DNA of 64,000 nt from Clostridia bacterium (GTDB lineage: Bacteria; Bacillota; Clostridia; Lachnospirales; Lachnospiraceae). The DNA lies in NCBI GenBank assembly GCA_910574835.1, contig CAJTDE010000026.1, positions 1-64,000 of the forward strand, in the 5' to 3' direction. Below are positions 18,893-40,027 of this stretch, one piece after another. The position numbers were made by a program, and so were the translations under genes. Numbering within the stretch: the first letter of the stretch is position 1; each line of letters begins with the position of its first letter. Below the pieces are notes generated by a model. The model did not search any database. It was not told where the DNA came from and saw only the letters and a list, made by a program, of their open reading frames with translations.

Positions 18893-19852
18893 TTATTCTT
18901 TTTTCATCAGACCTTTGCCTAGTTCTTCGTCAATCACCAATACATTGATATATTTTCCGGCCAAAGCAGCCTTTAGGACCTCCAGCTTTGCACGTCCGGA
19001 GGCAATGCAAATCTTGTAATCCTTTTTTATCAGCTCCGAGAGAGGAAGAGAGACATTTCGCTGATCCAGGGTTTCATCGCTGAGCTGTCCGTTTTTATTA
19101 ATAAAGTGGCTGAAAATGTCGCCTACGGTTCCGGACTGCATCAACGCCTCCAATTTTTCCTGTGCAAGAAAGCCTGATTTAATCAGGGAGTTTGTTCCCA
19201 CTGTGCCGAGGGAGCCGACGGAAAATATAATAATGTTTGCTTTTTTCTGCAGGGAGACTACTTTTTGAAGATTCCGATCTTTAAAAAGAGCCTCCTTTAT
19301 CTTTGTGTTTTCTAAGAATAGAGGACAAGGGAAACCATAGGGTGTAGCATTTAGGGCTTCCGAAGTCATTTTCAGATTTTCCTTTGTAAAAATATGATGG
19401 CTTAAATCAGTATATTCTCCGGAGAGCTGAACCACATGCAAGTTGGAGATATCGTCTCTGTGAATTACATTAAGTGCGAAATTGTACATAGTACTTCCGT
19501 TGGAGATACCAATGACATCATCATTTTTAAGTATGGAGTTAAGATATCGCGCAGCCGAGCCTGATACCTGGGTTATTGTGCTTTCACCTGGAATACAGGG
19601 AGTAATGAAAACTCTTAAAAGTCCGTAATCCAATCGGATTTTTCGTTCCAGAGAGCTTTCGTCGTTCAAGGGGTCTCGAATTGTGATTTTTACAATGCCA
19701 GATGAGGATGCCTCCTGAAGCAGCTTGGACACATAAGGACGGGAAAGATTCAGCTTTTCAGCAATGGTCATTTGATTATAATGATGCTCATAGTACATTC
19801 TGGCTACGGTTACTAATAGGGATGTCTTATCATTCTGGTAAATTAGTTCCAC
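18893..19852 (-). CDS. SorC-family sugar-binding transcriptional regulator
   Basis: A 319-residue SorC/DeoR-type regulator: N-terminal HTH (MTIAEKLNLSRPYVSKLLQE, about residues 27-46) and a phosphosugar-binding effector domain with IGISNGSTMYNF (the SorC VGVSGGxT-like loop, here with Asn). It is divergent from the glycerate kinase-Liv-enolase-LarA operon across a 292-bp gap and is the clear candidate regulator of that operon. SorC effectors are usually phosphorylated sugars, which fits a pathway with a phosphorylated sugar-acid intermediate. AAAGGA lies before ATG 19852. Confidence 0.88.
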   Translation of the reverse strand: MELIYQNDKTSLLVTVARMYYEHHYNQMTIAEKLNLSRPYVSKLLQEASSSGIVKITIRDPLNDESSLERKIRLDYGLLRVFITPCIPGESTITQVSGSAARYLNSILKNDDVIGISNGSTMYNFALNVIHRDDISNLHVVQLSGEYTDLSHHIFTKENLKMTSEALNATPYGFPCPLFLENTKIKEALFKDRNLQKVVSLQKKANIIIFSVGSLGTVGTNSLIKSGFLAQEKLEALMQSGTVGDIFSHFINKNGQLSDETLDQRNVSLPLSELIKKDYKICIASGRAKLEVLKAALAGKYINVLVIDEELGKGLMKKE

Positions 19853-20144: not shown

Positions 20145-21608
20145 ATGAGAATTAAAAACAGGGAAATGCTTGTGTCACATGGCTATCTTGCCGGAAGAAA
20201 GAATATGGCAGAGATTTTGGAAGCCGGACTTATGGCTGCGGATCCCTACTGCAATACGCGGGAGCTTTTTCATCTGGAAGGGAATCTGCTTTCCATAGGA
20301 AGTCCCGAGTTTGAAGCGGACGGAGATCCCAGAACAGGAACAGAGGTGATAGATCTAAGCCAGATAGAGCATATTTATGTGGCAGGCGCGGCAAAGGGTG
20401 TGCAGAGAATGGCAAAAGCCATAGAGGATGTGCTGGGAGAATGGTTGACTGGCGGTCATGTGATTGGAAAGTACGGCGACAGTACGGAGCTTACACGCAT
20501 CGGCATCACCCTTGGTTCCCATCCAACCCCGGATGAGGGCTGTGTGGAAGGCTGCAGGAGAATCCTGGAATTGTCCGGAAAGGTAACGGAAAAGGACCTG
20601 GTGATAACTATTATCGGAAACGGAGGCTCTTCTCTTTTGACCTACCCTTCGGAGGGGATTACCATTCAGGAGGTTCGGGATTTTACTTATATGATGCAGA
20701 TTGAAAAAGGAGTCCCTACCATTGAACTGAATGTAGTAAGGAATCACATTGATCAATTAAAAGGCGGCCGCCTTACCAGACTCTTTTCCAAAGCCAAGGT
20801 GATCTGCCTGGATTGTGTGGATGCCAATGATTTTCGAATGCGCGGAGTGCGGGAGAACTGGCAGATCTTAATGCATGAAAATAGATGGCTTCACAATCTT
20901 CCGGATGAGACAACCTTTGCGGATGCTCTGGCAGTCATAGAAAAGTATGAGGCAGAGGAGCGAACGCCAGAGAGTATTCTCAAGCATCTGCGTACTGCGG
21001 CTCCGGAGGAAGAGACGGTGCATTTTCAGGAATTTCAGGAATTTGATACCCGTATGTTCGGCATCACGCCAAAATCACGGGATTTTATGGAGGTAAGCAA
21101 ACGGAAGGCCGAGGAATTGGGATATCGGGCACTTACCTTCGCCCATGTGGAGGCGGTGGAGTCAGTCCAGGCAGCGCGAATCTTTGCATCGGTGGTAAAG
21201 CATACTCTGGAGATAGGAGAACCGTTTCAGGCGCCGGTAGCTTTGTTTATTGGTGAGGAGATGGTAGTGGAGGTAGGAAAAAGCAAGGGGGTCGGAGGAA
21301 GAAATCAAGAATATGCGTTGATGATGGCGAAGCTTTTGGCAGGCCAGGAGCGGGTTACCGTGGGAGCCGTGGATACGGACGGAACAGACGGCCCGGGAGG
21401 TCTTCGGCTGGAGGGAGCGCCGGGGTGCCTGGCAGGGGGAATCATAGACGGACAGACCTGGGAGGAAGCAAAAAAACGGGAGGTTGACATAGAACATGCA
21501 TTGGCCACCCACAATACATCGGAAGCTCTCTGGAGGCTGGGCTGCGGCGTGGCGGCAGAACAAAATGTCAGTATGGGCGATCTGGGCGTTATATTAATTG
21601 ATGTGTAA
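20145..21608 (+). CDS. Glycerate 2-kinase-like protein (DUF4147/MOFRL)
   Basis: A 487-residue protein of the GckA/TtuD glycerate 2-kinase family: N-terminal DUF4147 domain with VAGAAKGVQRMA and GNGGSSLL loops, and a C-terminal MOFRL domain with GGRNQEYAL and VDTDGTDG. Family members phosphorylate the 2-hydroxyl of D-glycerate to give 2-phosphoglycerate. ATG 20145 is chosen, with GAGGTG 8 nt upstream. The segment around residue 115, GSHPTPDEG, matches the family's SHPxPD motif. It is first gene of the Liv-enolase-LarA operon. The DUF4147 part is longer than usual near residues 280-320, so a related hydroxy acid rather than glycerate is possible. Confidence 0.85.
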   Translation: MRIKNREMLVSHGYLAGRKNMAEILEAGLMAADPYCNTRELFHLEGNLLSIGSPEFEADGDPRTGTEVIDLSQIEHIYVAGAAKGVQRMAKAIEDVLGEWLTGGHVIGKYGDSTELTRIGITLGSHPTPDEGCVEGCRRILELSGKVTEKDLVITIIGNGGSSLLTYPSEGITIQEVRDFTYMMQIEKGVPTIELNVVRNHIDQLKGGRLTRLFSKAKVICLDCVDANDFRMRGVRENWQILMHENRWLHNLPDETTFADALAVIEKYEAEERTPESILKHLRTAAPEEETVHFQEFQEFDTRMFGITPKSRDFMEVSKRKAEELGYRALTFAHVEAVESVQAARIFASVVKHTLEIGEPFQAPVALFIGEEMVVEVGKSKGVGGRNQEYALMMAKLLAGQERVTVGAVDTDGTDGPGGLRLEGAPGCLAGGIIDGQTWEEAKKREVDIEHALATHNTSEALWRLGCGVAAEQNVSMGDLGVILIDV

Positions 21609-21656
21609 TTTGCGCATTAAGCGTAAAAAATAAAAGGATAAAAGGAGGAAATGTAC

Positions 21657-22901
21657 ATGAAGAAATGGGGAGCGATGCTATTGGCGCTGATGCTGGTGGT
21701 AATGGCAGGCTGTAAGGGACAGCCTGCATCGGAGCCGGAAAGGGAGCCGGAGCAGACAGAGGAAGCGGTAGGAGATCAGGCAGAAGGTGAAGAAACACCG
21801 GCGCAGAGAGAATTTGACGGACAGATTAAGATTGGACTTTTAACCACCGGAACAGCGATTGCCACCTATACGGAGACCGTAACCTACGGAGCAGAGCTGG
21901 CAGCCAGACAGTTAAATGCCGCAGGCGGCGTGCTGGGGAAAGAGGTTGTGATTGTGCCCTCTGACGGAAGCAATACGGCGGACGAGACCATCAATGGAGC
22001 AAATCGTCTTCTGGAGGACCCGGAGGTTGCAGCTGTCTGCGGATATCCGCTTTCTACCGGTTGTCTGGCAATCGAGAGCTTGTTTAAGCAGGCAGAAAAG
22101 CCGGTAGTAATATCCGGAACCAGTGTGCGGCTTAAGGATGAGACAGACAATAACTACCTGTTCCGCGGCAGAGCTTCGGACGCCATCCAGGCCAGAAATG
22201 CGGCGGCCTTTCTGGCAGAAGAGCTGGGAATGAACGAAGTTATGGGCATTTTGTATGAAAACAATGACTTTGGTCAGGGCGCGCTGCAGGTGGTAGAGGA
22301 GTACTGCAAGGAGAATGGCATTACACTGGTGGCAGAGGGCTTCAATCCGACAGACACAGATATCACAACACAGGTTTTGAAGCTAAAGGATTCCGGCTGT
22401 CAGTCTGTGGTAACCTGGATAGCGGCCAGCGCCGTACCTACGGTTTCCAGCAATATGTACAATCAGGGGCTGACTGTACCGAAGTGCGGTCCTGTTGCCG
22501 TAACCCTGGAAGAAAATCTTGCAAACTGTGAACCTGAGTGGATTGACGGCTGGTATGGTGTTACGGACATTTGTATGACAAAGGAAGATAAGGCGCTTAA
22601 GGATTTCATTGCCGCATATTATGAGGCTTTTGGGGACGACGCATATCTTTCCAATGAGGGAGCCAATATCTACAGCCATGTTTTGTGGATTTGCGATGCC
22701 ATTGAGCGGGCTGGTTCCACAGAAGGACCGGCAATTATGGAAGCCATGAGAAGCACGGAAAAATTCCCGGGTTTAAACGGAAACTACCAGCTTATTGGCG
22801 ACAAGGTAGACTATGTGGCAACCATAGACATTGCACAGGATACCATTGTAGACGGCAAGGTGACCAATGTATTTATTAAAACCGTAGGAGAAGAACAGTA
22901 A
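21657..22901 (+). CDS. Liv-type ABC transporter solute-binding lipoprotein
   Basis: A 414-residue type I periplasmic-binding-fold lipoprotein. The signal peptide ends with lipobox VMAGC (Cys19), followed by an acidic Glu/Pro linker and the LivJ/amide-type domain (about 60-414). ATG 21657 rather than 21651 is used because the AAAGGAGG site is then 8 nt away. It binds the substrate outside the membrane for the two permeases and two ATPases that follow. LivJ relatives bind branched amino acids, amides, urea or aromatic acids, so the ligand could be a small acid that suits the kinase, enolase and racemase genes around it. Confidence 0.9.
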   Translation: MKKWGAMLLALMLVVMAGCKGQPASEPEREPEQTEEAVGDQAEGEETPAQREFDGQIKIGLLTTGTAIATYTETVTYGAELAARQLNAAGGVLGKEVVIVPSDGSNTADETINGANRLLEDPEVAAVCGYPLSTGCLAIESLFKQAEKPVVISGTSVRLKDETDNNYLFRGRASDAIQARNAAAFLAEELGMNEVMGILYENNDFGQGALQVVEEYCKENGITLVAEGFNPTDTDITTQVLKLKDSGCQSVVTWIAASAVPTVSSNMYNQGLTVPKCGPVAVTLEENLANCEPEWIDGWYGVTDICMTKEDKALKDFIAAYYEAFGDDAYLSNEGANIYSHVLWICDAIERAGSTEGPAIMEAMRSTEKFPGLNGNYQLIGDKVDYVATIDIAQDTIVDGKVTNVFIKTVGEEQ

Positions 22902-22932
22902 GGGCTTTGAAACAGGAAAGGAGGATGGCCGA

Positions 22933-23838
22933 ATGCAGAATGTATTGTTTCAGCTGATTGTCAGCGGAACTGCAATGGGTTTTGTATATGCGCTGGTGGC
23001 AGTAGAGTACACGTTGATCTGGAATGCATGCGGGCTGCTTAATTTCAGCCATGAGAAAATAATTATGCTTGGGGGCTATATGTTTGTAGGGACCTGTATC
23101 ACAATGTTTGGCATGTCCAATCTGCTGTCGGCGCTGCTGGCCATTCTGCTCCTGGGAGTATTCGGAATTTTGATTGCGGTAGTCATATTTATTCCCCTAA
23201 GGAACCAATCCAGACTGATTGCCGTAGTGGCAACCGTTATGCTGGGACAGATATTGAATGAAGCAGCCGTGCTGGTGTGGGGACCGGTTGCTTTGATGCC
23301 CAAAAACTTTTTGTCCGGCGTGTTTCAGATTATGGGAGCAACCATAGCAAAAAGCTATGTGTATATTATTATGATTTCCATTTTTATTATTATCGCTTTG
23401 CAGTTTGTCTTTAAAAGGACAAAATTTGGGAAGGCAATGACTTGTGTATCCATACATAAGACGGCAGCATCCCTTATGGGAATCAATGTAAAGGCCAGTA
23501 TGGTAATTACGCTGATGATTAGCTTTATGATATGCGCTGTGATTGGCATTATAACGGCGCCTATCTTTACCGTAAAGCAGCAGATGGCGACGATGATTGC
23601 GCTAAAAGGATTCTGCGCCGGTGTAATCGGTGGATTCGGGAGCCTTCCGGCAGCCATAGCAGGGGGCCTGATTCTGGGAATTGTGGAAAATCTGGCTGGT
23701 TTAGTTCTTCCTGCCGTATTCAAGGACGCAGTAGCATTTACCTTGATGATTTTGTTTATGATGTTTTCCCCAAAAGGATTGATTGGGGTAAAGCAGGAGA
23801 TGGATCGCAAAAGGCAGCTTAGGACAGGGGAGGTTTGA
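22933..23838 (+). CDS. livH: Liv-type ABC permease (LivH-like)
   Basis: A 301-residue membrane protein with about eight hydrophobic helices, of the LivH family. It opens with GTAMGFVYALVAVEYTLIWNA, given as GTAMGFVYALVA plus VEYTLIW, and ends with the family FSPKGLIG segment. GGAGG precedes ATG 22933. It pairs with the LivM-like gene, whose start overlaps its stop, to form the channel of the importer. Confidence 0.9.
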   Translation: MQNVLFQLIVSGTAMGFVYALVAVEYTLIWNACGLLNFSHEKIIMLGGYMFVGTCITMFGMSNLLSALLAILLLGVFGILIAVVIFIPLRNQSRLIAVVATVMLGQILNEAAVLVWGPVALMPKNFLSGVFQIMGATIAKSYVYIIMISIFIIIALQFVFKRTKFGKAMTCVSIHKTAASLMGINVKASMVITLMISFMICAVIGIITAPIFTVKQQMATMIALKGFCAGVIGGFGSLPAAIAGGLILGIVENLAGLVLPAVFKDAVAFTLMILFMMFSPKGLIGVKQEMDRKRQLRTGEV

Positions 23839-24830
23839 TGAGCATGAAAGATAAAAGAAGCATTTTGAAATATTTCCCCCTCCTGATGCTTGGAATGATT
23901 GGAATTTTGCCTTTGTTTATGACAAGTAATTATTATCAGACGATTTGCTGCCAGGCCATGCTCTATGCAGTTGTAGCTTTGGGATTGAACTTTATCGTCG
24001 GCTTATCAGGGCTGATGACCCTTGGAACGGCGGCAATCTATGGATTGGGAGCCTATACCTCAGCCTTGTGCTGCACAAAGCTGGGCATGAATCCCTGGGC
24101 GGCGCTGGTTCCGGTGCTTTTTATGGGATGGCTTATCGGAAAGGGGCTTGGGTATCCAAGCCTTCGCGTCCAGGGTGTATATCTGTCCCTGGCAACCATT
24201 GGCTTTAATGAAATTGTCCGAAGCTTTCTTACGAATCTGGAGTGGACAGGCAGCGGTACGGGAATCCGGAATATAGAGCCTTATCGAATCGGAGATTTTG
24301 CTTTTGATACCCAGATTCGAAGCTATTACCTGATCTATGCGGTATTGCTTTTGTTCATAGGGATTGCCTGGAAGATCGTAAATTCCAGATGGGGAAGGGC
24401 ATTTGTGGCAGTAAAGGATAATCCGGAAGCTCTTCAAATCTGCGGGATTGATATTGCGAATGTAAAGATAACGGCATTTACATTGTCCTCTGTTTTTGCA
24501 GTCGTGGCGGGGGCTATGTATGCTCATTTTAACCGCTACATAACACCGGCCACCTACACGACGGACTTGTCGATTTCGTTTGTGGTTATGCTGATTATCG
24601 GAGGCTTGGGAAATTTTTGGGGCTGTATTTACGGGGCTTACATCGTTGCGTTTTTGCCGCAGCTTTTACGTCCCATAGGGCTGTCCTACAAATTGATTTA
24701 TGCCCTGATTATGATGTGCCTGGTGGTGTTTTTCCCAAATGGCCTGATTCGGGATATGAAAAAATATCTGACATTCAAAAGGGCGTTGAAAGGTGGTGCG
24801 GCAAGTGAAAACAATTCTCAAGATCGATAA
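23838..24830 (+). CDS. livM: Liv-type ABC permease (LivM-like)
   Basis: A 330-residue polytopic LivM-family permease with the coupling segment DNPEALQICGID and the terminal FPNGLI motif. ATG 23838 overlaps the livH stop by one base; ATG 23844 is an alternative 10 nt from GGGGAGG. The 3' end overlaps the next ATPase gene by 26 nt, so the transporter genes are translationally coupled. Confidence 0.9.
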   Translation: MSMKDKRSILKYFPLLMLGMIGILPLFMTSNYYQTICCQAMLYAVVALGLNFIVGLSGLMTLGTAAIYGLGAYTSALCCTKLGMNPWAALVPVLFMGWLIGKGLGYPSLRVQGVYLSLATIGFNEIVRSFLTNLEWTGSGTGIRNIEPYRIGDFAFDTQIRSYYLIYAVLLLFIGIAWKIVNSRWGRAFVAVKDNPEALQICGIDIANVKITAFTLSSVFAVVAGAMYAHFNRYITPATYTTDLSISFVVMLIIGGLGNFWGCIYGAYIVAFLPQLLRPIGLSYKLIYALIMMCLVVFFPNGLIRDMKKYLTFKRALKGGAASENNSQDR

Positions 24831-25611
24831 TCTCACAAAGGTATTCGGCGGACTGGAAGCGGTTAAGGATGTAAACATTCAAGTGCAGGAACGGGAAATC
24901 CACGCTTTGATAGGACCGAACGGAGCAGGCAAGACAACAACCTTAAGTATGATTAACGGAACCTTAACACCAACCACAGGAAAAATAGTATTTCGCGGAA
25001 AAGACATTACAGGCTGTCCTCCCCACAGGGCGGCAGCGGAAGGGCTAGGGAGAACCTTTCAAAATATTAAGCAGTTCGGCTCCCTGACGGTATTGGAGAA
25101 TTTGATGGTTGGGGGCATGTATCATCACAACAAAGGCGGCGTGCTCCATATGCTGCTTCACAGAAAAGAGACAAGAGAGCTTGAACGCCAAGTAAGGGAA
25201 AAGGCAGAAGAGATTGCATGTAAAATAGGGGTGCGGAATCTTTGCGGGGAATACGCGGGGAACCTTCCTTACGGAAGGCAGAAGGTCCTGGAATTGGGAA
25301 GGGCCATGATGGGAGATCCAAGACTGATTCTTCTGGACGAGCCGGCAGCCGGCTTGAACCCTTCTGAGCGGGCGGAGTTTGTAGAGATATTAAATAAAAT
25401 TTATGAGGAAGGCATCGACTTATTTTTGATTGAGCACAATATGGATGTCGTGATGAATATCAGCCATAAAATTACGGTGCTGAACTTTGGCAGGAAGATT
25501 GCGGAAGGAACGCCCCGGAAGGTGGCAAACAATGCGGCGGTTATCAAAGCCTATCTGGGCGACCGCTATGGGAAAAATGATCAGGGGGGTGAACCGAATG
25601 CTGGAGGCTGA
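24805..25611 (+). CDS. livG: Liv-type ABC ATPase (LivG-like)
   Basis: A 268-residue ABC ATPase with Walker A GPNGAGKT, Walker B LILLDEPAAGLN and the LivG-type insertion after GRTFQNIK. The signature reads LPYGRQKVLELGR in place of LSGGQ, usual for LivG proteins. GTG 24805 is favoured (AAAGGTGG 8 nt upstream); GTG 24793 is also in frame. It energises import with LivF. Confidence 0.9.
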   Translation: MKTILKIDNLTKVFGGLEAVKDVNIQVQEREIHALIGPNGAGKTTTLSMINGTLTPTTGKIVFRGKDITGCPPHRAAAEGLGRTFQNIKQFGSLTVLENLMVGGMYHHNKGGVLHMLLHRKETRELERQVREKAEEIACKIGVRNLCGEYAGNLPYGRQKVLELGRAMMGDPRLILLDEPAAGLNPSERAEFVEILNKIYEEGIDLFLIEHNMDVVMNISHKITVLNFGRKIAEGTPRKVANNAAVIKAYLGDRYGKNDQGGEPNAGG

Positions 25612-26308
25612 CCGCATTACAACATACTATGGAAACGCCTGTGCCCTCAGAGAAGTGTCATTTGAAGTAAATGAGGGAGAGATCGTATCAATTATCGGTG
25701 CAAACGGGGCAGGAAAATCTACCTTGATGAAATCCATTATGGGCGTCGTAAAGCCGCGTACAGGAGCCATCCGGTATAAGGGAAAGGAGATCCTGCATTT
25801 CCCGACTCATAAAATAGTCGGAGAGGGAATTGTGTATGTACCGGAGGGGAGAGATGTATTTGCGCCTATGTCCGTTCAGGACAATTTGGAAATGGGAGCT
25901 TACAGCCGGCCCTTTTCCAAAAGCCAGACAGAGGAATTGTGCGAGGAAATGTATCAAATGTTTCCCAGACTTAAGGAGCGCAGGAAGCAGACGGCAGGAA
26001 CCTTAAGCGGCGGGGAACAGCAGATGCTGGCCATAGCCAGAGGACTTATGAGCAAGCCGGAGATTATTATGTTTGACGAGCCTTCTTTGGGTTTGGCGCC
26101 AATTGTGGTAGACGAGGTATTTGAGCGGATCAAATATATCAATCAGGAGCTGAAGATATCAGTTGTTCTTGTGGAACAGAATGCTTACATGGCTTTGACC
26201 ATCTCGGATCGGAGCTATGTAATGGAGAATGGAAGGATTGCAAAACATGGAGCAAGCCAGGAGCTGCTTCATGACGATTCCATTAAGACAGCATATTTGG
26301 GAATGTAA
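25598..26308 (+). CDS. livF: Liv-type ABC ATPase (LivF-like)
   Basis: A 236-residue ABC ATPase with Walker A GANGAGKST, signature LSGGEQQM, Walker B MFDEPSLGLAP and VVLVEQNAYMAL, all typical of LivF. ATG 25598 follows GGGGGGTG and overlaps the end of livG by 14 nt. It is the last transporter gene; the enolase-like gene begins 25 nt later. Confidence 0.9.
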   Translation: MLEADRITTYYGNACALREVSFEVNEGEIVSIIGANGAGKSTLMKSIMGVVKPRTGAIRYKGKEILHFPTHKIVGEGIVYVPEGRDVFAPMSVQDNLEMGAYSRPFSKSQTEELCEEMYQMFPRLKERRKQTAGTLSGGEQQMLAIARGLMSKPEIIMFDEPSLGLAPIVVDEVFERIKYINQELKISVVLVEQNAYMALTISDRSYVMENGRIAKHGASQELLHDDSIKTAYLGM

Positions 26309-26333
26309 AATTTCACACTTAAAGGGGAAAACA

Positions 26334-27617
26334 ATGAAAGGTAGAGCAATAAAAAATATCATTACGAGGCAGGTCTTTTCCAAAAGAGGCCATCCCGGAA
26401 TTGAAGCAATTGTAACAACAGAAGGCGGAATTGTAGAAAAGGCCATGTGCACAGCCGGACTATCGGTAGGTACGCATGAAGTAAAGTTCGTCTATGACGG
26501 GGGAGAGCGCTGGAAAGGCAAGGGCGTTCAAAGAGCGGTGCACAATGCCAACGAAAAAATCATTCCGCACTTAATAGGCATGGATGCGGCCAATCAAAGT
26601 GAAATTGATTATACAATGCTTCACCTGTGTCCAAATGTAAAGGAAATGCTGGGAGGAAACGCCATAGCGGCCATATCGGCAGCCGTCTTAAAGGCAGGGG
26701 CGAGAAGTCTGGATCTGCCTCTCTATCGCCATATAGGAGGAGAGAATGCAAGAGTTCTTCCCGTTCCGTCGGCGCCGGCAATCACCGGTACCAGAAGATA
26801 TGGGAGCTTAAGCGGCAGAAATGGCACAAAGCCCAGCATTACCTTTCAATGCTATGATTTTAACAGCTTTGAGGATGCCTCTTACGCTGCCTGGGAAATC
26901 TATCAGCTGTGGTCAGAAGCCATGAAAAGAAAAGGGATATGGTCTCCGGACCCCTGGCACTTTTTTGACGTACCGCCCGGCATATTTGCAGACGATCTTC
27001 AATTGTTTGAATGGATGGCGGATACCATACAAAGAGCCGGCTACGAAGGAAGAGTCGGAATCCAGATTGATGTGGCGGCGGATACGTATTACAACAAAGA
27101 GGATGGCAGATATTATGGAATCTTAACTCCCGAGCCAAAGGATACCGAACAGATGCTGGAGCTGTATTTAAAAATGGTCCGCGATTATCCGGTCATTATT
27201 ATAGAAGATCCTTTTCATGAAGAAGATTATGAAAGTCACGGAAGGCTGACTCAGGCAGTTGACATTCAGATTGTGGGAGATGATTTGTATACAACCAATA
27301 CGGAGCGTGTAAAGCTGGGAATCGAAAAGGAAGCAACCAACTGCGTACTTCTTAAAGTAAATCAGATTGGTACAATAACCGAGACACTGGAAATGATTCA
27401 TCTGGCTTACCAAAACGGCATGGGAGTTATGCCCTGTGAGAGCAGAGGAGAAGGCGATACCATTGCGGATTATTCGGTAGGAATCAATGCAGGCAGTATT
27501 CGGGAGTCAGCCATCAATGAGACGGCAAACCGCCTTTTGGAGATCGAGAAGGAATTAGGCGAAAAAGCAGTTTTCCTGGGAAAATACGGTTTGAAAGGAA
27601 AGAGGTTTCGACATTGA
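26334..27617 (+). CDS. Divergent enolase paralogue with altered active site
   Basis: A 427-residue protein that aligns along its length with enolase. Retained: the mobile loop AGLSVGTHE with Ser44 (enolase Ser39), metal ligands Asp246, Glu291 and Asp316, and Lys341 in LLKVNQIG, the enolase proton-abstracting Lys345. Changed: enolase QEF (Glu168) reads FQCYDF, GDEGG (Glu211) reads FFDVPPG, the GGSHA loop (His159) is gone, SHRSGETED (His373) is shortened to CESRGEGD, and Lys396 is Arg. Metal- and Lys-assisted enolisation is thus kept, while the general acid and phosphate-handling residues differ. ATG 26334 has AAAGGGG upstream. It sits between the Liv importer and the LarA-like gene. Likely a dehydratase, epimerase or lyase of a 2-phospho sugar acid, not the housekeeping enolase. 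Confidence 0.85.
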   Translation: MKGRAIKNIITRQVFSKRGHPGIEAIVTTEGGIVEKAMCTAGLSVGTHEVKFVYDGGERWKGKGVQRAVHNANEKIIPHLIGMDAANQSEIDYTMLHLCPNVKEMLGGNAIAAISAAVLKAGARSLDLPLYRHIGGENARVLPVPSAPAITGTRRYGSLSGRNGTKPSITFQCYDFNSFEDASYAAWEIYQLWSEAMKRKGIWSPDPWHFFDVPPGIFADDLQLFEWMADTIQRAGYEGRVGIQIDVAADTYYNKEDGRYYGILTPEPKDTEQMLELYLKMVRDYPVIIIEDPFHEEDYESHGRLTQAVDIQIVGDDLYTTNTERVKLGIEKEATNCVLLKVNQIGTITETLEMIHLAYQNGMGVMPCESRGEGDTIADYSVGINAGSIRESAINETANRLLEIEKELGEKAVFLGKYGLKGKRFRH

Positions 27618-28900
27618 AAACAAACTATCACGATTTACTTTCACATATTACACTGCCGGCCTTTGTAAAAGTAAAATACCGGATTCCCGGCCGCCAATTG
27701 TCAAATCTGCCAAAGGAGATACATAAAGCCATTGTGGAGGCGGAAGTACTTGACAGAATAAAAGAAGGAATGCGGATTGCGGTAACCGCAGGCAGCCGTC
27801 ATATGGCGGAATATCCAATCTTGCTGAAAGCGCTCATAGAAGAACTAAAGGCAGCCGGCGCGGAGGTGTTCTTAGTTCCGGCTATGGGAAGTCATGGAGG
27901 AGCAACGGCAGAGGGACAGACAGCAATCCTCAGAAGCTATGGGATAACAGAGGAAACAATGGGAGTTCCGATTTGTTCTTCTATGGAGACCGTAAGTCTT
28001 GGAAAAGCAGAGAATGGTATGGAGGTCCGGATGGACCGTTATGCCTATGAAGCAGATGGAATCGTTGTCTTTAACCGTGTGAAGGCGCATACGGGTTTTC
28101 GCGGGCCAGTAGAAAGCGGATTGATGAAAATGATTACAATCGGTCTGGGAAAACAGCACGGGGCCAATATCTGCCACAGCCGCCCACCCGAAGAAATGTC
28201 AAAAAATATCCATACAATTGCATCCTTTTGCATTGCCCATTCTCCAATACTTTTTGCAGTAGGCATTGTGGAAAATGCAAGCCATCAGGTATATGACATA
28301 AAGGCGATAAAAGCGGAAGAGCTTTGGAAAGAGGAGCCTAAGCTCTTGGAAGAGGCAAAGCGGCATATGCCCCGTATCCCATTTGCCAAGGCAGATGTAC
28401 TCTTTGTGGATGAGATTGGAAAAGACATAGCAGGTGAGGGAATGGACCCCAATATCACAGGGCGTTCTTTCTTTATCGGAGAGAAGGAGCCCTATTTTGA
28501 GAGCATAGCAGTTCTGGATATAACAGATGCTTCCGAAGGAAACGGAACAGGAATCGGCAACGCAGATGTGATATCCGGACGGGCCTTTGACAAATTCCGT
28601 ATGGATATGGTATACCCAAACTGCATTACTTCCCGGGACAGCAAATCCACAAAGCTTCCGGTTACAATGCCCTGTGATATGTTGACCCTTCAATTTGCAT
28701 TACAGATTTGCTATGGGATAGATGACAGCAGGGGACCGCGAATAGTCTGGATAAAAAACACCCTTTGCTTGGATACCTTTTATATTTCAGAAGCACTGGT
28801 GGAAGAAGCGAGGATGAATCCTGATTTGGAGATAGCAGGAGAATTGCAGGAAATAAATTTTGATCATGCGGGAAATGTAATAGAGCATAATTACGATTGA
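27614..28900 (+). CDS. LarA-like nickel-pincer racemase/epimerase
   Basis: A 428-residue LarA/DUF2088-type protein. LarA of Lactobacillus uses a nickel-pincer nucleotide bound by Lys184 with His108, His174 and His200. Equivalent residues with near-identical spacing are visible: His94 in MGSHGGAT, His159 in KAHTGFRG, Lys172 in SGLMKM and His188 in ICHS. Relatives racemise lactate, malate, 2-hydroxyglutarate or sugar acids at the 2-hydroxyl. TTG 27614 overlaps the enolase-like stop by 4 nt and has GAGG 8 nt upstream. It is the last gene of the operon. No cofactor synthesis genes (larB, larC, larE) are in the window. Substrate unknown. Confidence 0.82.
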   Translation: MKTNYHDLLSHITLPAFVKVKYRIPGRQLSNLPKEIHKAIVEAEVLDRIKEGMRIAVTAGSRHMAEYPILLKALIEELKAAGAEVFLVPAMGSHGGATAEGQTAILRSYGITEETMGVPICSSMETVSLGKAENGMEVRMDRYAYEADGIVVFNRVKAHTGFRGPVESGLMKMITIGLGKQHGANICHSRPPEEMSKNIHTIASFCIAHSPILFAVGIVENASHQVYDIKAIKAEELWKEEPKLLEEAKRHMPRIPFAKADVLFVDEIGKDIAGEGMDPNITGRSFFIGEKEPYFESIAVLDITDASEGNGTGIGNADVISGRAFDKFRMDMVYPNCITSRDSKSTKLPVTMPCDMLTLQFALQICYGIDDSRGPRIVWIKNTLCLDTFYISEALVEEARMNPDLEIAGELQEINFDHAGNVIEHNYD

Positions 28901-29476: not shown

Positions 29477-29529
29477 GAAAATTATCCATTGAAACAGACA
29501 TAAACCTGAATATAAGAGAGGGCATGCAA

Positions 29530-30840
29530 ATGAAAACAATCGGAATTGATATTGGAACCACAACCATCGGCGCCGTAGTTATGGATACGCAGGATAAGAG
29601 GCTTTTGACTTCCGTAACCATACCCAACGGAAGCTTTATCAAGACAGCCTGCGAGTGGGAACGGATTCAGGATGTAGGGCTTCTTATGAAAAAAGCAAAA
29701 GAACTCTTGGATTCACTTTTAGAGGAATATCCGGATACAAAGACCATAGGATTGACCGGGCAGATGCATGGGATTCTCTATACGGATATAAACGGACAGT
29801 GCATCAGCCCCTTATATACCTGGCAGGATGGAAGCGGGGATCAACCGAAGTTCGGCGGAGAGTCTCTCGTTGAGCAGATTACAAAAAAGTATGGAATTTT
29901 CGCAGCTACGGGATTCGGACTGGTAACTCATTTGTATCATGTGAAAAAGGGGCTTGTTCCGGAGGGGAGCGTATCTCTTTGCACCATTTCCGATTATCTG
30001 GGTATGTGGCTTACAGGCAGACAGCGCCCCCTTGTACATGCCAGCAACGGGGCCAGTCTGGGGTTTTATGATTCTAAGGAGTGGCGTTTTAGGGAGGAGA
30101 TGCTTACCGATACCGGAATAGATCTTTCTATACTGCCGGAGGTGACGACAGAGGTAAAGAAGCTGGGTACCTATCATGGGAAGACGGTTCTTGTGAGTCT
30201 TGGCGATAACCAGGCCAGTTTTCTCAGCGCAGCAGGGATGCAGGAACACGTGTGGCAGGTGAATGTAGGAACAGGAGGCCAGCTTTCCGTTTTATCAGAG
30301 CAGCATTTTGAGGCGGCCGGAATCGAGGCGCGGCCGTTTTTGGATAAAAAGTATATTCTCACAGGCGCAGTGCTTTGTGCGGGAAGGGCCTATGCGATTC
30401 TGGAGAACTTTTTCCGAAGCTGCGCTCAGTCTATGGGGATGGAAGACGGAGAGCAGTACGGCCTTATGGAGCGTTTGGCCGGGGCAGCAAAAGAGGATGC
30501 GGGCGGAATTTCTGTTGTAACAAAGTTCAAGGGGACGCGGGTAAATCCGGATGAGAGGGGAAGCATCAGCGGAATCAGCGAGGAAAATTTTCTGCCGGAA
30601 AATCTGGTACTTGGCGTGATTCAGGGAATTGCCGGCGAGATGTATGACATTTACCAAGAGATTCATAGGGGAACCGGGATCCGCGCAGACAGGCTGGCCG
30701 CCTCCGGAAACGGCGTCAGAAGGAATCCGGCGCTGCGTGAAGCTTTGGAAAAAATGTTCCGGGCAAAGCTTGAGATAACAGGATATCAGGAGGAGGCCGC
30801 CTGCGGAGCCGCTCTCAGTGCGCTGTATATGAAAGAATAG
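29530..30840 (+). CDS. FGGY-family sugar kinase (sedoheptulokinase-like)
   Basis: A 436-residue FGGY carbohydrate kinase. The N-terminal phosphate loop GIDIGTTTIG, GLTGQMHGILY and LYTWQDGSG are close to sedoheptulokinase and xylulokinase motifs; NVGTGGQ and AASGNGVRRNP belong to the C-terminal ATP domain. FGGY kinases are usually 450-550 residues, so this is a short form. ATG 29530 is chosen, with GAGAGGG 8 nt upstream. The gene has its own promoter and is followed by the divergently regulated LacI block, so its physiological partner is unclear. The product would be a ketose phosphate. Confidence 0.85.
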   Translation: MKTIGIDIGTTTIGAVVMDTQDKRLLTSVTIPNGSFIKTACEWERIQDVGLLMKKAKELLDSLLEEYPDTKTIGLTGQMHGILYTDINGQCISPLYTWQDGSGDQPKFGGESLVEQITKKYGIFAATGFGLVTHLYHVKKGLVPEGSVSLCTISDYLGMWLTGRQRPLVHASNGASLGFYDSKEWRFREEMLTDTGIDLSILPEVTTEVKKLGTYHGKTVLVSLGDNQASFLSAAGMQEHVWQVNVGTGGQLSVLSEQHFEAAGIEARPFLDKKYILTGAVLCAGRAYAILENFFRSCAQSMGMEDGEQYGLMERLAGAAKEDAGGISVVTKFKGTRVNPDERGSISGISEENFLPENLVLGVIQGIAGEMYDIYQEIHRGTGIRADRLAASGNGVRRNPALREALEKMFRAKLEITGYQEEAACGAALSALYMKE

Positions 30841-30963
30841 AATACTTCTGTTAATATGGGGTTGTGGATGGTGAAAATATACAAAAAATACTTTGAAAAA
30901 GGAGAGTATATTAGCATTAAAACGGCAAAGTGCATAAAAATATACCATGTATATATTTTTTAG

Positions 30964-30992
30964 TTGACGAATAAATGAAATGAGTGTATAAT
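30964..30992 (+). promoter_or_regulatory. Strong promoter of the LacI operon
   Basis: TTGACG (30964-30969) and TATAAT (30987-30992) with the ideal 17-bp spacer, 12 bp before the first LacI operator. Confidence 0.8.
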
Positions 30993-31003
30993 AAAATCAC
31001 TGG

Positions 31004-31078
31004 TTGAGAACGTTCTCAAAATTTACATTCGGGAGCGGAGAAAACCAGAATAAAGTTATAAGTTGAGAACGTTCTCAA
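31004..31078. promoter_or_regulatory. Two perfect 16-bp LacI-type operators
   Basis: The palindrome TTGAGAACGTTCTCAA occurs exactly twice, at 31004-31019 and 31063-31078, centres 59 bp apart. The central CG and symmetry are typical of LacI/GalR operators. Lying downstream of the promoter and before the regulator gene, they imply autoregulation by repression, possibly with looping. Confidence 0.85.
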
Positions 31079-31097
31079 AAAATAGAGGAATATTACA

Positions 31098-32150
31098 ATG
31101 GAGAATAGTAATCAATCAATTACCATAGACGACGTGGCAAAGTTAGCAGGTGTATCAAAAGCTACGGTTGGACGCGTCATTGGAAATTATGGAAGTGTAT
31201 CAGACAAGAGCCGCCGAAAAGTTATAGAGGCCGTAAAGGAATTAGATTATGTTCCCAATACCATAGCTCAAGGACTTCGCAGCCACAGTACAAAAACAAT
31301 TGCTGTTATATTGGGAAGTATTAAAAATGGTTATTGCAATGAGCTTGTATATGCGATAGAGAAAGAAGCAATGAAGCGGGGATATAATGTATTGATATGC
31401 AATACCCATGAGAACTTGGACAAAGAGATTCAGCATCTTCAAAATATAAGAAGCCGCCAGGTAGATGGTGTGATATTGATTCCTGTATATACAATTGGAA
31501 AAGTGATTCCGGAAAAGTACAGACATTTGTATGAGAGCTTAAATATTCCAATGGTATTAGTTGACAGAAATATTATGGGAATAGAAAAGGACTTGGTCCA
31601 AAGTAAAAATGAGGAGGCTTCCTATGAGGCAACAAAATATCTGATATCTCTCGGTCATAGGAATATCGGCGTCATAGGAACGGTTGCCTATTCAACAGTA
31701 CAGGACCGGATAAAGGGATATCGCAGAGCGCTTCAGGAAGCAGGAATTACAATAAATGCATCTTTGGTAGTAGATGCGGAGTATTCAGAAAAGCATGTAG
31801 GACAAAAGCTGGCAGATAAGCTTTTGAAAGAGCATCCGGAATTGACAGCGCTTTACGTTTTGAATAATACTCTTTGCGGAAGTGTGCTCCTGGAACTAAA
31901 GAAACGGAATTTACATATGCCGGATGATTTATCTTTGATTACGTGGGATGATGATGAACTGAATGAACTATTTGATATTACAACAATTGTTCAATATGTT
32001 GAGGAGATTGGAAGATCGGCAGTGAAGCGTTTATTTGAGCTAATGGAAAATCCTCAGTCCAGGGCGGAGATACAGCGAATCGATACGGAGATGGTAGTTC
32101 GTAAATCCTGTGGAAAACCAAAAACAGTACGGTGGAATAGTAAAGCCTGA
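31098..32150 (+). CDS. LacI-family transcriptional regulator
   Basis: A 350-residue LacI/GalR protein. N-terminal HTH: ITIDDVAKLAGVSKATVGRV (the hinge-side VGR replaces the usual VSR) with GYVPN-like LDYVPNTIAQGL hinge. The effector domain is of the periplasmic-binding type (about 60-340). It has the twin operators upstream and probably represses its own operon until a sugar ligand binds. The kinase gene begins 41 nt downstream. Confidence 0.92.
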   Translation: MENSNQSITIDDVAKLAGVSKATVGRVIGNYGSVSDKSRRKVIEAVKELDYVPNTIAQGLRSHSTKTIAVILGSIKNGYCNELVYAIEKEAMKRGYNVLICNTHENLDKEIQHLQNIRSRQVDGVILIPVYTIGKVIPEKYRHLYESLNIPMVLVDRNIMGIEKDLVQSKNEEASYEATKYLISLGHRNIGVIGTVAYSTVQDRIKGYRRALQEAGITINASLVVDAEYSEKHVGQKLADKLLKEHPELTALYVLNNTLCGSVLLELKKRNLHMPDDLSLITWDDDELNELFDITTIVQYVEEIGRSAVKRLFELMENPQSRAEIQRIDTEMVVRKSCGKPKTVRWNSKA

Positions 32151-32191
32151 AAAGGCTGCTATAAATACATTATTTTAAAGGAGGTTACTTT

Positions 32192-33424
32192 ATGGACTTA
32201 ATCATGGGAATGAACAGCGGTTCCTCATTTGATGGAATTGACGTAGTTCTCGCAGAGACAGAAATGGATGCGGATGGCTTTCCCAAGGCGCCGAAGTTTA
32301 TCTGCGGAGGATCTTATGACTGGCCGGATGATGTGAAAGAAATCGTGACGGCATCCTTTGACAACAAAGTGGATATGGTTGGGCTGAACAGACTGAATTA
32401 TATCTGCGGAGCAGTATTTGCTGAGAAGGCTGTGCAGTTTATGAAAGAAAAGAATATCAATCCGCTGGACGTAAAGGTTCTGGGGCTGGATACACAAACG
32501 ATATATCAGGAACAGCCTGATCACAAAACAATTGATGCTATGACGGCTGAACAGAAGTCAGACTGGACTCACAGGTGGCTGAACGGTCCGTATCCGGCAG
32601 GAATACAGATGGGAGACAGTTCTGTTATAGCCAATCTGACGAACATTGATACCGTAACACATTTTCGTCCGGCGGATCACACTTGGGGCGGAAGTGCGGC
32701 GCCTCTGATGCCATATCTGGATTTCATCCTTTTTCGGAAAGATGAGAAACCGTCCATGACATTGAATATCGGCGGAATTGCGAATCTTCATGTAGGATGC
32801 AAAGACAGAAGAGATATGTTTGGATTTGACACAGGACCGGGCAATGTGATTTCAAATTACATGTGCAGAAAGTTATTTGGAGTTGAGTATGATAAGGATG
32901 GAAAGATTGCGGCAAGTGGAAATGTAAATGATGAGCTTTTAGACCATTTTATGCATCATCCGTTTTTCGACAGACCGGTACCGCGCTCAGGATGGATAGC
33001 TGATTATAGTGCGGAATACATTGAGGGTGTAATTGAGAAGTTCAAGCATCTGCCAAAAGAGGATATCATTGCTACGGCATGCGCGTTTACCGGAGCGGCC
33101 GTTGCTAAGAGTATGATTGATAATATTCCGGAAGAAATAATAAAGAATACGGACAAGCTTTATGCAAGCGGCGGCGGTACAAGGAATCCTCAGATTATGA
33201 AAGAAATACAGGCAAGAGTACCATCCAATATTACAGTGACGACCTCTGCTGATATTGGCGTTCCGCCAGAGTATAAAGAAGCGATTAAGTTTGCGACCAT
33301 CGCTTATTCAACTATTCATTGCGTACCAGGCAATATACCAGCAGCAGGCCATGCGTCACAATATGCAATTCTCGGCAAGATTGCATTGGCTCCGCGTCAT
33401 ATAAAAGGCGGTGCACAGCTTTAA
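32192..33424 (+). CDS. AnmK/levoglucosan-kinase-like anhydrosugar kinase
   Basis: A 410-residue member of the 1,6-anhydro-N-acetylmuramic acid kinase family, whose enzymes hydrolyse the anhydro bond and phosphorylate O6. Conserved: GMNSGSSFDGIDV (family MSGTSLDGID), QMGDSSVIA, NIGGIANL, and FDTGPGN with catalytic Asp213. Divergent: the family HGQT reads LDTQT (His lost), about 25 residues are inserted before QMGD, and DFRxxD reads HFRPAD. At 410 residues it is longer than AnmK (about 370) and nearer to yeast levoglucosan kinase. AAAGGAGG lies before ATG 32192. In operon with LacI and an Rbs-type importer, it may phosphorylate an imported anhydrosugar other than anhydroMurNAc. Confidence 0.82.
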   Translation: MDLIMGMNSGSSFDGIDVVLAETEMDADGFPKAPKFICGGSYDWPDDVKEIVTASFDNKVDMVGLNRLNYICGAVFAEKAVQFMKEKNINPLDVKVLGLDTQTIYQEQPDHKTIDAMTAEQKSDWTHRWLNGPYPAGIQMGDSSVIANLTNIDTVTHFRPADHTWGGSAAPLMPYLDFILFRKDEKPSMTLNIGGIANLHVGCKDRRDMFGFDTGPGNVISNYMCRKLFGVEYDKDGKIAASGNVNDELLDHFMHHPFFDRPVPRSGWIADYSAEYIEGVIEKFKHLPKEDIIATACAFTGAAVAKSMIDNIPEEIIKNTDKLYASGGGTRNPQIMKEIQARVPSNITVTTSADIGVPPEYKEAIKFATIAYSTIHCVPGNIPAAGHASQYAILGKIALAPRHIKGGAQL

Positions 33425-33585
33425 TCACAGAACTACATATCGCTATGATTGTAGCATAAATTTCCATTGAAAACTAGTAGTAAAATCAGATAGTATTCAA
33501 TTGCGACCTGAATATTTGAAGAATAGACATTTGGTAAGGTTGGCTTATGCCGATAGTACTTGAGAAAGATGAAAGGACAACTATT

Positions 33586-34602
33586 ATGAAAAAGAGAATT
33601 TTAGCTTTAATATGTGCATCTGTTATGGCTTTATCTTTGACAGCATGTGGAAATAGTTCAAAAGCTCCGGAAGCGGAAGATTCAGCAGCGGCGCCTGAGA
33701 CAGAGGAACCAAAAGAGAAGGAGTCTACGGAGAAGGAAGAGACTATTACTATCGGAGTTTCATTTGGACAGAATGTACATCCATTCTTTGTCGCTATGCA
33801 GATGGGCATTGAGGCGGCTTGCAAAGATTATGGGATTGAGAATGTAAATATTTTGGCGGCAGATAGTTCTTTGGAGACACAAGTATCTCAGATAGAGAAT
33901 TTAGTAACAATGGGCTGTGATGTGATTCTGCTGAATCCTTATGATTCCGATGGAGTTGTAAATGCGGTGAATAGTGCATTAGAAGCTGGTGTAGGTGTAT
34001 TTACTATGGATATAGATTGCGAGGGCTCCACTGCATATGTGGCTTCTGATAATGTAAAAGTTGGCAAGCTTCTTGGTGAGTGGATCGTGGAGCAGCTTGG
34101 CGGTGAAGGCAAAATCGCAATCATTGACGGAATCAGTGTAACATCTCTGAAAGACAGAACAGACGGCTTTATGTCAGCGATTGAGGGGAGTAATATTGAA
34201 ATTGTAGCAGAACAGCAGACAGCAGTAGAGCGGGATGATGCGCTGGCTTCAGCTGAAACCATTTTACAGGCGCATCCAGATATCGATGCATTTGTCGGCG
34301 TGAATGAAAATTCCGGTATGGCTATTTTAAGCGCTGTGACGGCAGCCGGGTTAGAGGATGTACTCATGACTTGTGTGGACGCAACAGCAGAAACAATGGC
34401 AGCTATCCGCGATGGCAAAGTAGATGTGGGCGTATCACAAGATCCGTATCAGATGGGATATACGGCAGTAGAGCAGGCCATCGCCTGGGCAAATGGCGAG
34501 AACGTAGAAGCATTTGTAGAAGTTCCGGTTGATTATATGAATCAGGATAATATTCAGGAAGTGATTGAGAGAGAGCAAAGCTATGGAGTAGAAGTAGAGT
34601 AA
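33586..34602 (+). CDS. Rbs-type sugar-binding lipoprotein
   Basis: A 338-residue substrate-binding protein of the ribose/galactose class. The signal peptide ends at lipobox LTAC (Cys21), then a Glu-rich linker, then the type I binding fold (about 50-338). ATG 33586 has AAAGGA upstream. It supplies substrate to the ATPase and permease that follow, and a strong hairpin terminator lies directly behind it. The ligand is probably the sugar handled by the AnmK-like kinase upstream. Confidence 0.9.
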   Translation: MKKRILALICASVMALSLTACGNSSKAPEAEDSAAAPETEEPKEKESTEKEETITIGVSFGQNVHPFFVAMQMGIEAACKDYGIENVNILAADSSLETQVSQIENLVTMGCDVILLNPYDSDGVVNAVNSALEAGVGVFTMDIDCEGSTAYVASDNVKVGKLLGEWIVEQLGGEGKIAIIDGISVTSLKDRTDGFMSAIEGSNIEIVAEQQTAVERDDALASAETILQAHPDIDAFVGVNENSGMAILSAVTAAGLEDVLMTCVDATAETMAAIRDGKVDVGVSQDPYQMGYTAVEQAIAWANGENVEAFVEVPVDYMNQDNIQEVIEREQSYGVEVE

Positions 34603-34670
34603 TGAATCAGGAGCTTTTATAGACAGATTATGCGAAGAGAATAAGGTATAATCTGTAGATTCTAGAAAAA

Positions 34671-34716
34671 AGGGTGTCGCAAAATGAAAAGGCTTATTTT
34701 GTGACACCCTCTTTTT
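34671..34716 (+). terminator. Strong terminator inside the ABC operon
   Basis: AGGGTGTCGCAAAAT (34671-34685) pairs with ATTTTGTGACACCCT (34696-34710) over 15 bp with one G-U pair, followed by CTTTTT. It lies between the binding-protein gene and its ATPase gene. Confidence 0.85.
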
Positions 34717-34740
34717 GTAAAAAATAAAAGAGGTGAAAAT

Positions 34741-36258: not shown

Positions 36259-37199
36259 GAGAAAAGAAAAAAATGGATCTTGGTTCGTTACGTGAATTAC
36301 TTTTGATAGGAGTCGTGATTATTCTTTGCATTATTTGGACAATTATGAATCCCCAGTTTATTTCCATGAATAATGTTACAAATATTTTACGTCAGGGATC
36401 TTATACGGCTATTGCTGCCGTAGGAATGACGATGGTAATTATCATAGGAGAGATCGATTTGTCAGCAGGATCTTTGATTTGTGCATCTGGTTTGGTTGGA
36501 GCAATGGTCTGCAAAAGTACAAATAATGTTGTTCTGGCAGTGTCGGCGGCATTATTGGTAGGAGTAGTAGTCGGAGGGTCCAATGGTGTGCTTTGTGCAG
36601 TCGGAAAATTGCCGGGCTTTATTGCAACGTTGGCCAGTATGACCGTATTAAGAGGGCTTGCCTATATCATTACCGGCGGAAATTCTGTGGTATGGACTAA
36701 TGAGGCATTTACAAAGATTGGAACAGGCTATGTAGGAATTGTACCGATTCCTGTAATTATCATGCTTGTTGTGATTATATTCGGCGTGTTTTTAACATCA
36801 AAGCTGCGCTTTGGACGCTATATTTATGCAGTCGGCGGCAATATGGAAGCAAGCAGATGGTCAGGCATTGCAGTCGTGAAGGTAAAAATTATTGTCTATA
36901 TGATTATGGGGGTACTCACGTCAATTGCCGGTTTAATCGTTGTGACCAGGCTGGGTTCCGGGCAGCCTTCAGCGGGACAGAATTTTGAGATGGACTGTAT
37001 TACAGCAGCAGTTGTTGGCGGAACCAGTATGTCAGGCGGACGGGGAAAGATTATCGGAACTGTTGTAGGCGTATTACTTCTGACCGTATTAACTAACGGC
37101 ATGACGCTTGTCGGTATCAATACTTATTGGCAGCAGGTATTTAAAGGAATTATCATAGTGGTCTCCGTACTTGCAGATACCCACACAAAGAAAAATTAA
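36255..37199 (+). CDS. Rbs-type sugar ABC permease
   Basis: A 314-residue RbsC-class permease with about eight membrane helices and the family GEIDLSAGS and GGTSMSGGRG loops, the latter contacting the ATPase. Its start overlaps the ATPase stop. It is the last gene of the LacI-kinase-ABC operon, followed by a terminator. Confidence 0.92.
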   Translation: MREKKKMDLGSLRELLLIGVVIILCIIWTIMNPQFISMNNVTNILRQGSYTAIAAVGMTMVIIIGEIDLSAGSLICASGLVGAMVCKSTNNVVLAVSAALLVGVVVGGSNGVLCAVGKLPGFIATLASMTVLRGLAYIITGGNSVVWTNEAFTKIGTGYVGIVPIPVIIMLVVIIFGVFLTSKLRFGRYIYAVGGNMEASRWSGIAVVKVKIIVYMIMGVLTSIAGLIVVTRLGSGQPSAGQNFEMDCITAAVVGGTSMSGGRGKIIGTVVGVLLLTVLTNGMTLVGINTYWQQVFKGIIIVVSVLADTHTKKN

Positions 37200-37257
37200 A
37201 ACAAGTCTTAGAGCTTAAGGTTTGTTGAAAAGCATTTAACTAATTATGGAGAAAAGA

Positions 37258-37289
37258 AAGAGTCTGTCAATGCGGCAGGCTCTTATTTT
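37258..37289 (+). terminator. Terminator of the LacI-kinase-ABC operon
   Basis: AAGAGTCTG (37258-37266) pairs with CAGGCTCTT (37276-37284) with one G-U pair, followed by ATTTT. The next 160 bp is AT-rich with a TATAATT/AATTATA inverted repeat (37361-37385) and a TATAAT box (37409-37414) that may start the next operon. Confidence 0.7.
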
Positions 37290-40005: not shown

Positions 40006-40027
40006 CAGTTATATCATTACAGTGCGC

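Follow-up and report, generated by a model that had tools for sequence, protein, structure and literature searches.

A remodelled enolase-family gene linked to a MOFRL kinase and a nickel-pincer isomerase in a candidate 2-hydroxy-acid operon of a Lachnospiraceae bacterium

What reaction does an enolase-family enzyme carry out when its gene lies in an operon with an importer, a kinase and a nickel-pincer isomerase? The question is raised by a stretch of 64,000 nucleotides from a Clostridia bacterium of the Lachnospiraceae (assembly GCA_910574835.1, contig CAJTDE010000026.1, positions 1 to 64,000), which we call the window. Here, a SorC/DeoR-type regulator gene diverges from eight plus-strand genes at 20145-28900. 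Family-model searches, run on mechanically called open reading frames (ORFs), confirmed all of them, and with them the gene families named in the original prediction, which had been made from the letters alone: a DUF4147/MOFRL kinase (kin), a full Liv-type importer, a divergent enolase (enoX) and a LarA-type enzyme (larX), behind a SorC regulator. The unit holds eight genes and not seven as first counted, the importer accounting for five. We propose, with confidence just short of even, that EnoX is an enolase rebuilt on its leaving-group side rather than a spare glycolytic enolase, and that the genes form a regulated operon for the breakdown of a 2-hydroxy acid via inversion, phosphorylation and elimination, the likeliest substrate being a C4-C6 sugar acid or another C3-substituted glycerate.

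What is new here is the active site of EnoX. In enolase, the C2 proton is removed by a lysine, with two glutamates and a histidine placed on the opposite, water side, and an arginine and a serine hold the phosphate (PMC8996150, in excerpt). The window protein (26334-27617, plus strand) retains S44, D246, E291, D316 and K341, and has R155, K166-P167, S168, C368, S370-R371 and R390 at or near the positions of enolase H159, E168, SHRS and K396. In enolase numbering, which we take to be that of yeast enolase, S39, D246, E295, D320 and K345 are retained in all 18 members of the EnoX clade. The phosphate-holding pair R374-S375 reads Ser-Arg throughout the 18, Arg takes the place of K396 in 17 of them, and at H159 stand 16 Arg and 2 Tyr, while E168 is replaced by Ser, Thr or Val, E211 is never Glu (18/18) and H373 is never His. 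A new K166-P167 pair directly before the E168 position is invariant in the 18 members, the placement of residues around gaps being alignment-dependent. Among the 17 clade members fetched, none has the DEG motif and none an HRSG-type motif, compared with 71 and 74, respectively, of 75 other enolases, whereas P(C/G)xSRG(E/D) occurs in 17/17 and 0/75. These 75 are the non-clade loci, all of them motif-checked and 12 of them also placed in the tree described below; five lack one of DEG and the HRSG-type motif. Since the residue audit and the motif counts agree, we conclude from the sequences that the half-site predicted to form the metal-bound enolate is intact and that the water-handling half is rebuilt with added positive charge. 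EnoX probably no longer performs the textbook reaction of glycolysis.

The protein is nevertheless an enolase in its build. It passes the Pfam cut-offs for Enolase_N (PF03952, 117 bits) and Enolase_C (PF00113, 177 bits), and its best NCBIfam match is the phosphopyruvate hydratase equivalog TIGR01060, at 291.8 bits (292.2 for the shorter ORF) against a cut-off of 300. An AlphaFold2 model with a predicted local distance difference test score of 87.3 (low confidence at 155-164 and 207-209) has enolase 2pa6 as its best PDB match, with a template-modelling score of 0.88. Thus, EnoX shares with enolase the fold, the metal ligands, the K345 base and S39, is 32-42% identical to 22 other aligned enolases, and differs from them in the replacements listed above and in forming its own clade. 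In a tree of 31 proteins, from which the degenerate second enolase-like protein of locus L108 (L108b) was excluded, the 18 EnoX members, from both Bacteria and Archaea, make up one side of a 100/100 branch. That branch is long and separate, with 0.67 changes per column, and identity between distant members falls to about 40-60%.

The original prediction had the pathway end at phosphoenolpyruvate (PEP) if it started from L-glycerate. LarX would then racemise glycerate, kin would make 2-phosphoglycerate and EnoX would be a second phosphopyruvate hydratase. The family of the kinase, the occurrence of kin beside an ordinary-type enolase in locus L122 and the nearness of EnoX to the TIGR01060 cut-off speak for this, as does the published racemisation of glycerate by LarA-family enzymes (PMC11770544, in excerpt). 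A search of the bacterium's own genome (G000) found an ordinary enolase on contig C2, with a PF00113 score of 424 bits compared with 178 for EnoX. Because of this normal enolase and because EnoX lacks the leaving-group glutamates, conversion of L-glycerate to PEP by the operon is unlikely. The absence of both enolase motifs and the long separate branch also argue against plain glycerate use, and we regard that explanation as quite improbable. The lost catalytic residues might instead mean that EnoX is no pathway enzyme but a relative, structural, sensory or dead, that has been retained for some other purpose; L108 indeed has a degenerate enolase-like gene directly after enoX. The metal ligands and the lysine base, however, are invariant in 18/18 despite the drop in identity between distant members, which is the pattern of a working active site, and we consider this reading very improbable.

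The gene neighbourhood provides another line of evidence. A pattern scan of genome contigs, with one genome per species and 84,980 species, gave 190 confirmed enoX relatives; among the best 80 of these, which were kept, four loci (L016, L017, L053 and L018) belong to the enoX group. Profile searches built on the first five members, with E-value limits from 1e-110 to 1e-120 that exclude ordinary enolases, detected the group in 4 of 397 genomes sampled from the family, 2 of 398 from the phylum and 1 of 392 from the order (the own genome only), these samples overlapping and the own genome being counted in each. In the class around L018, the group was found in 4 of 201 genomes, including that of L018 itself. 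The enoX group is therefore rare and patchy.

The original prediction had named a lack of conserved co-occurrence as a refutation of its scheme. Instead, a kin gene and a LarA-type gene lie near enoX in all eight bacterial loci found (the window, L016, L017, L053, L106, L107, L108 and L118), in four layouts. The nine-gene block including the regulator recurs in identical order in L016, L017 and L053, at 63-87% identity and with the SorC gene in the same place. In L106 and L107 the order is enoX, the binding-protein gene, livHMGF, a group-22 larX, kin and, at the far end of the cluster, SorC. The L108 cluster holds Liv genes, an MR/MLE dehydratase-like gene, a LysR gene, enoX, the degenerate enolase-like gene, kin and a LarA-family gene outside group 22, for which the best model is malate racemase LarAH6 (210 bits, cut-off 500). 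L118, from another family of the phylum, brings together an SBP_bac_1/BPD_transp_1 ABC set, kin, enoX and again a LarA-family gene outside group 22, nearest to a malate-racemase model (252 bits, cut-off 500); the LarA-family proteins of L108 and L118 both retain the two histidines discussed below. The LarA type is thus group 22 in 6/8 loci and the transporter is of the Liv type in seven. We conclude that kin, enoX and a LarA-type gene stay linked while gene order, LarA group and transporter change.

Profile searches of the flanking DNA placed kin no more than 9 kb away in 12 of the 17 enoX loci fetched, compared with 1 of 75 other enolase loci (Fisher p 2e-10), and a LarA-type gene in 7/17 compared with 0/75 (Fisher p 2e-6); the control set is mostly archaeal and not phylogenetically matched, and the values serve as a guide only. 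Loci L069 and L078, which have no enolase ORF, were left out of this count. A chance neighbourhood was rejected, the block being the same in L016, L017 and L053, rearranged in L106 and L107, and present with exchanged parts in L108 and L118. A plasmid-borne trait was likewise rejected: a tblastn search with enoX matched 1,112 of 72,556 plasmid records, all below 60% identity, and 8/8 of the matches listed were annotated eno.

Several features of individual loci deserve mention. The degenerate gene at L108:10729-11934, directly after enoX, is 26% identical to it, scores 111 bits with TIGR01060 and appears to have lost the metal and base motifs. A lactate-racemase-type LarA gene (NF033504, 581 bits, cut-off 460) at L106:2145-3497 precedes enoX by about 6 kb, and an FGGY-family kinase gene lies in the interval. 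At L017:34-1496, class-V aminotransferase and HAD hydrolase genes (PhnW/PhnX-like by eye) end beside the SorC regulator with no sign of operon membership. At L122:8391-11310, the ordinary-type enolase paired with a MOFRL kinase, as expected for a route from glycerate through 2-phosphoglycerate to PEP, has ERSGQ in place of the HRSGE motif.

The bacterial partner of enoX, larX (27614-28900, plus strand; PF09861), belongs to LarA superfamily group 22 (NF052515, 499.8 bits, cut-off 400). LarA enzymes invert their substrates via a hydride shuttle (PMC12611868, in excerpt). H94 and H159 of LarX, corresponding to the catalytic histidines H108 and H174 of LarA, are invariant across nine aligned proteins; R62, K172 and H188 are also retained, and the K298 equivalent could not be placed with confidence in the alignment. 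In a Foldseek search with a low-confidence model (score 64.7 on the same scale as above), 18 of 18 PDB matches at E <= 0.001 were LarA-family proteins. The genes larC and larE, on which the nickel-pincer cofactor depends, both score over cut-off in the own genome, about 1 kb apart on contig C3, and in 7 of 9 genomes tested, namely the seven with Liv-type clusters, which is 7/8 of the bacterial enoX genomes; the two where they are not both over cut-off are G435 (L118) and G827 (L018). Group 22 itself is over cut-off in 6 of 61 relatives searched, including the own genome, and was also matched in Haloferax volcanii among 14 control genomes.

The kinase, kin (20145-21608, plus strand), has both domains of the class II glycerate 2-kinases (PF13660, 147 bits; PF05161, 64 bits), the family of 2b8n, 1x3l and GarK of T. 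tenax. In phmmer comparisons it scores 177 bits to 1x3l and 165 bits to 2b8n. It differs from that family in falling far below the cut-offs of the glycerate 2-kinase equivalogs (100.4 of 550 and 96.9 of 670 bits) and, in the bacterial set, in a longer loop after DGTDGP. The product of class II glycerate kinase is 2-phosphoglycerate only (PMC2063504, in excerpt).

All five importer genes, on the plus strand, are of the Liv type and give the unit the full component set of a branched-chain amino acid importer: a binding protein (21651-22901; PF13458, 182 bits), the LivH-type (22933-23838) and LivM-type (23835-24830) permeases, both PF02653, and the LivG-type (24793-25611; PF00005 and PF12399) and LivF-type (25598-26308; PF00005) ATPases. 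For LivF, NF008626 matched at 251 bits over residues 37-272 of a long ORF mechanically started at 25487, and we place the start at the ATG of MLEADRI. The best solved relative of the binding protein scores 62 bits. Compared with PDB 4gnr, its two readable pocket positions are changed, the carboxylate-site Thr to Val and the amino-site Glu to Ala, positions that we take to be the ones that matter in the amino-acid pocket of 4gnr.

Since the genes of the unit overlap or are separated by small gaps of 42, 31 and 25 bases, they likely form one transcription unit; a promoter and terminator scan gave results near the shuffled level and was not used. Ribosome-binding sites and homologue starts decided two gene starts. 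The mechanical start of kin at 20097 was dropped in favour of the ATG at 20145, which AGGTGA precedes, and that of enoX at 26229 was dropped in favour of the ATG at 26334, preceded by AAAGGGG, where enoX probably begins. The regulator gene (18893-19852, minus strand) matches PF04198 at 175 bits and NF053881 at 278.8 bits, below the cut-off of 420. The FGGY kinase gene downstream (29524-30840) was rejected as a member of the unit, having no match in L016, L017 or L053. It opens a region at 29524-43188 that also encodes a LacI-type regulator (by eye), an AnmK-family kinase, two ribose-type ABC transporter sets and a dCache sensor histidine kinase.

Which acid might the operon serve? Five group-22 loci without kin and enoX were read for clues (L096, L097, L098, L099 and L101). 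Two lie in sugar-acid contexts: the L096 gene stands beside genes for KDPG aldolase, a DGOK-type kinase and dehydrogenases, and the L099 gene beside altronate-dehydratase-type, DGOK and DHDPS-family genes. A TRAP transporter gene is present at L101, L097 held no substrate clue, and L098 is considered below. In L053, an L-fucose isomerase gene directly follows larX. The second histidine of LarX is followed by Thr-Gly, and that of its relatives by Thr-Gly or Thr-Asp; the corresponding pair is Glu-Ser in gluconate epimerase GntE2, Phe-Phe in lactate racemase and Tyr-Lys in malate racemase (PMC7583248, in excerpt). The LarX pair is closer in kind to that of GntE2 than to those of the two racemases. 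The context clues thus lean to sugar acids, agree incompletely and name no compound.

These clues bear on a further explanation, in which EnoX would expel an anion or ammonia rather than water at C3 (sulfite from phospho-sulfolactate, ammonia from phospho-isoserine or phosphate from a 3-phospho acid), with PEP or a 2-oxo acid as the product. Loss of the two water-handling glutamates and gain of R155 and K166 would suit a leaving group that is anionic or can depart without a general acid, and the Liv-type binding protein belongs to an amino-acid/carboxylate class. The two sugar-acid contexts of group 22 argue against it, and so do the transporter genes at L118 (the SBP_bac_1-type set) and at archaeal locus L136, where a BPD_transp_1 permease gene directly precedes kin-enoX; such ABC sets and permeases often serve sugars. 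No sulfur- or amine-specific gene was noticed in the clusters, although no dedicated search was made. We rate this explanation as rather improbable.

The same replacements recall MR-type dehydratases, whose sites are lysine-rich. MR/MLE dehydratases and enolases have in common the abstraction of an alpha-proton from a metal-bound carboxylate. Both are named as subgroups of one superfamily in a figure legend of PMC5467563 (in excerpt). EnoX could accordingly be a direct dehydratase of the unphosphorylated acid, with R155 and the invariant K166 replacing the acidic leaving-group side and kin acting on a different intermediate, such as one formed by dehydration or cleavage. Genes resembling MR/MLE dehydratases are found close to enoX in L018 (NF010624, 326 bits, cut-off 311) and in L108 (242 bits, below that cut-off). 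EnoX itself, however, belongs with the enolases: when its profile was compared with two MR/MLE proteins, no more than 91 columns could be aligned, at a probability of 79%, too few to set K166 against the MR/MLE lysines. In addition, kin is of a 2-kinase family and present in 8/8 bacterial loci, the invariant S39 and the Ser-Arg pair could hold a phosphate, and L108 has an MR-type gene besides enoX, so that EnoX does not simply substitute for an MR-type enzyme. Direct dehydration is, in our view, unlikely, if less so than the explanations above.

The scheme that we favour would thus begin with uptake of the 2-hydroxy acid by the Liv importer. LarX would invert C2 through its nickel-pincer hydride shuttle and kin would phosphorylate O2. 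EnoX would hold the O2 phosphate and the metal-bound carboxylate while K341 takes the C2 proton, and would expel the C3 substituent to yield the enol phosphate of a 2-oxo-3-deoxy acid. The enolase family is commonly regarded as having one function. It is possible, and we suggest this tentatively, that the EnoX group represents a second function within the enolase branch proper, in Bacillota and Bathyarchaeia, as a lyase of 2-phospho sugar acids (or C3-substituted 2-phosphoglycerate) that makes PEP-like enol phosphates. Its substrates would be supplied in bacteria by nickel-pincer epimerases, and the whole would be a phosphorylative route for acids that we found described nowhere.

A number of observations weigh against this scheme. 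The phosphate site of EnoX is altered, and binding of an O2 phosphate there is a guess; the unit has no gene whose product would evidently consume the proposed enol phosphate; and in L122 the pairing of kin with an ordinary-type enolase is consistent with the use of plain glycerate at that locus. LarX lacks the equivalent of D72, Ala or Val standing at that position in the aligned group-22 proteins, and D72 is listed as catalytic in LarA (PMC7583248, in excerpt). In G435, which has a LarA-like gene, LarC had no match and LarE none over cut-off, which complicates a nickel-pincer role for that gene. On a small tree, the group-22 genes found with kin and enoX need two changes, not one, to explain (one change in 22% of bootstrap trees). 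At L098:2126-10085, the group-22 gene lies beside genes for 2-hydroxyacyl-CoA dehydratase subunits, an activator-type ATPase, a CoA ligase and an acyl-CoA dehydrogenase, a context that points to a plain 2-hydroxy acid and not a sugar acid; the gene is possibly an epimerase feeding a 2-hydroxy-acid fermentation. Among the ten archaeal enoX loci, kin adjoins enoX in just five (L119, L120, L134, L136 and L137) and was not seen in the stretch read at L018, L121, L133, L135 or L138, the L121 contig ending 456 bases after enoX. A LarA-type gene was found in 0/10.

The archaeal loci show other neighbours. In L018, enoX lies near the galactonate-dehydratase-type gene scored above with NF010624 and an FAA-hydrolase gene, and aldo-keto reductase genes are found near enoX in L119, L121 and L137; these neighbours count among the clues that lean to sugar acids. 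MtmB-family genes (PF05369) adjoin enoX in L018 (3582-5024, 141 bits) and L138 (5897-7444, 123 bits) and lie about 6 kb away in L133 (971-2347, 242 bits), and archaeal EnoX may have some connection to methyl-transfer chemistry. In the class around L018, genome G827 has seven enolase-family matches at E <= 1e-20, four of them above 420 bits with the enoX profile, and G880 has four matches at E <= 1e-110 with that profile.

The scheme originally predicted is therefore partly supported, the conserved linkage speaking for it and its L-glycerate-to-PEP version being unlikely. A literature search found no published pathway joining these families among the titles and abstracts listed, although Table S1 of PMC7583248, which covers neighbour genes of LarA groups, could hold the association. 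The main-text excerpts of PMC11770544, PMC7583248, PMC12611868 and PMC11796402 contain no mention of "group 22" or "enolase", and the LarA papers, in excerpt, give no substrate for group 22. The operon resembles threonate/erythronate and aldonate pathways in its acid import, its kinase and a dehydration or oxidation. The parts belong to known kinds, and the active-site variant and the gene combination are new as far as the literature search shows. To our knowledge, none of the threonate/erythronate or aldonate pathways joins a nickel-pincer C2 inversion, an O2-kinase and an enolase-family step. With its rebuilt leaving-group site, and with gene clusters that tie it to a 2-kinase and, among bacteria, also to nickel-pincer isomerases, the EnoX clade is a clear target for the discovery of a new reaction. 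The group-22 nickel-pincer isomerases gain a testable pathway, and an expanded enolase family is indicated in some Bathyarchaeia.

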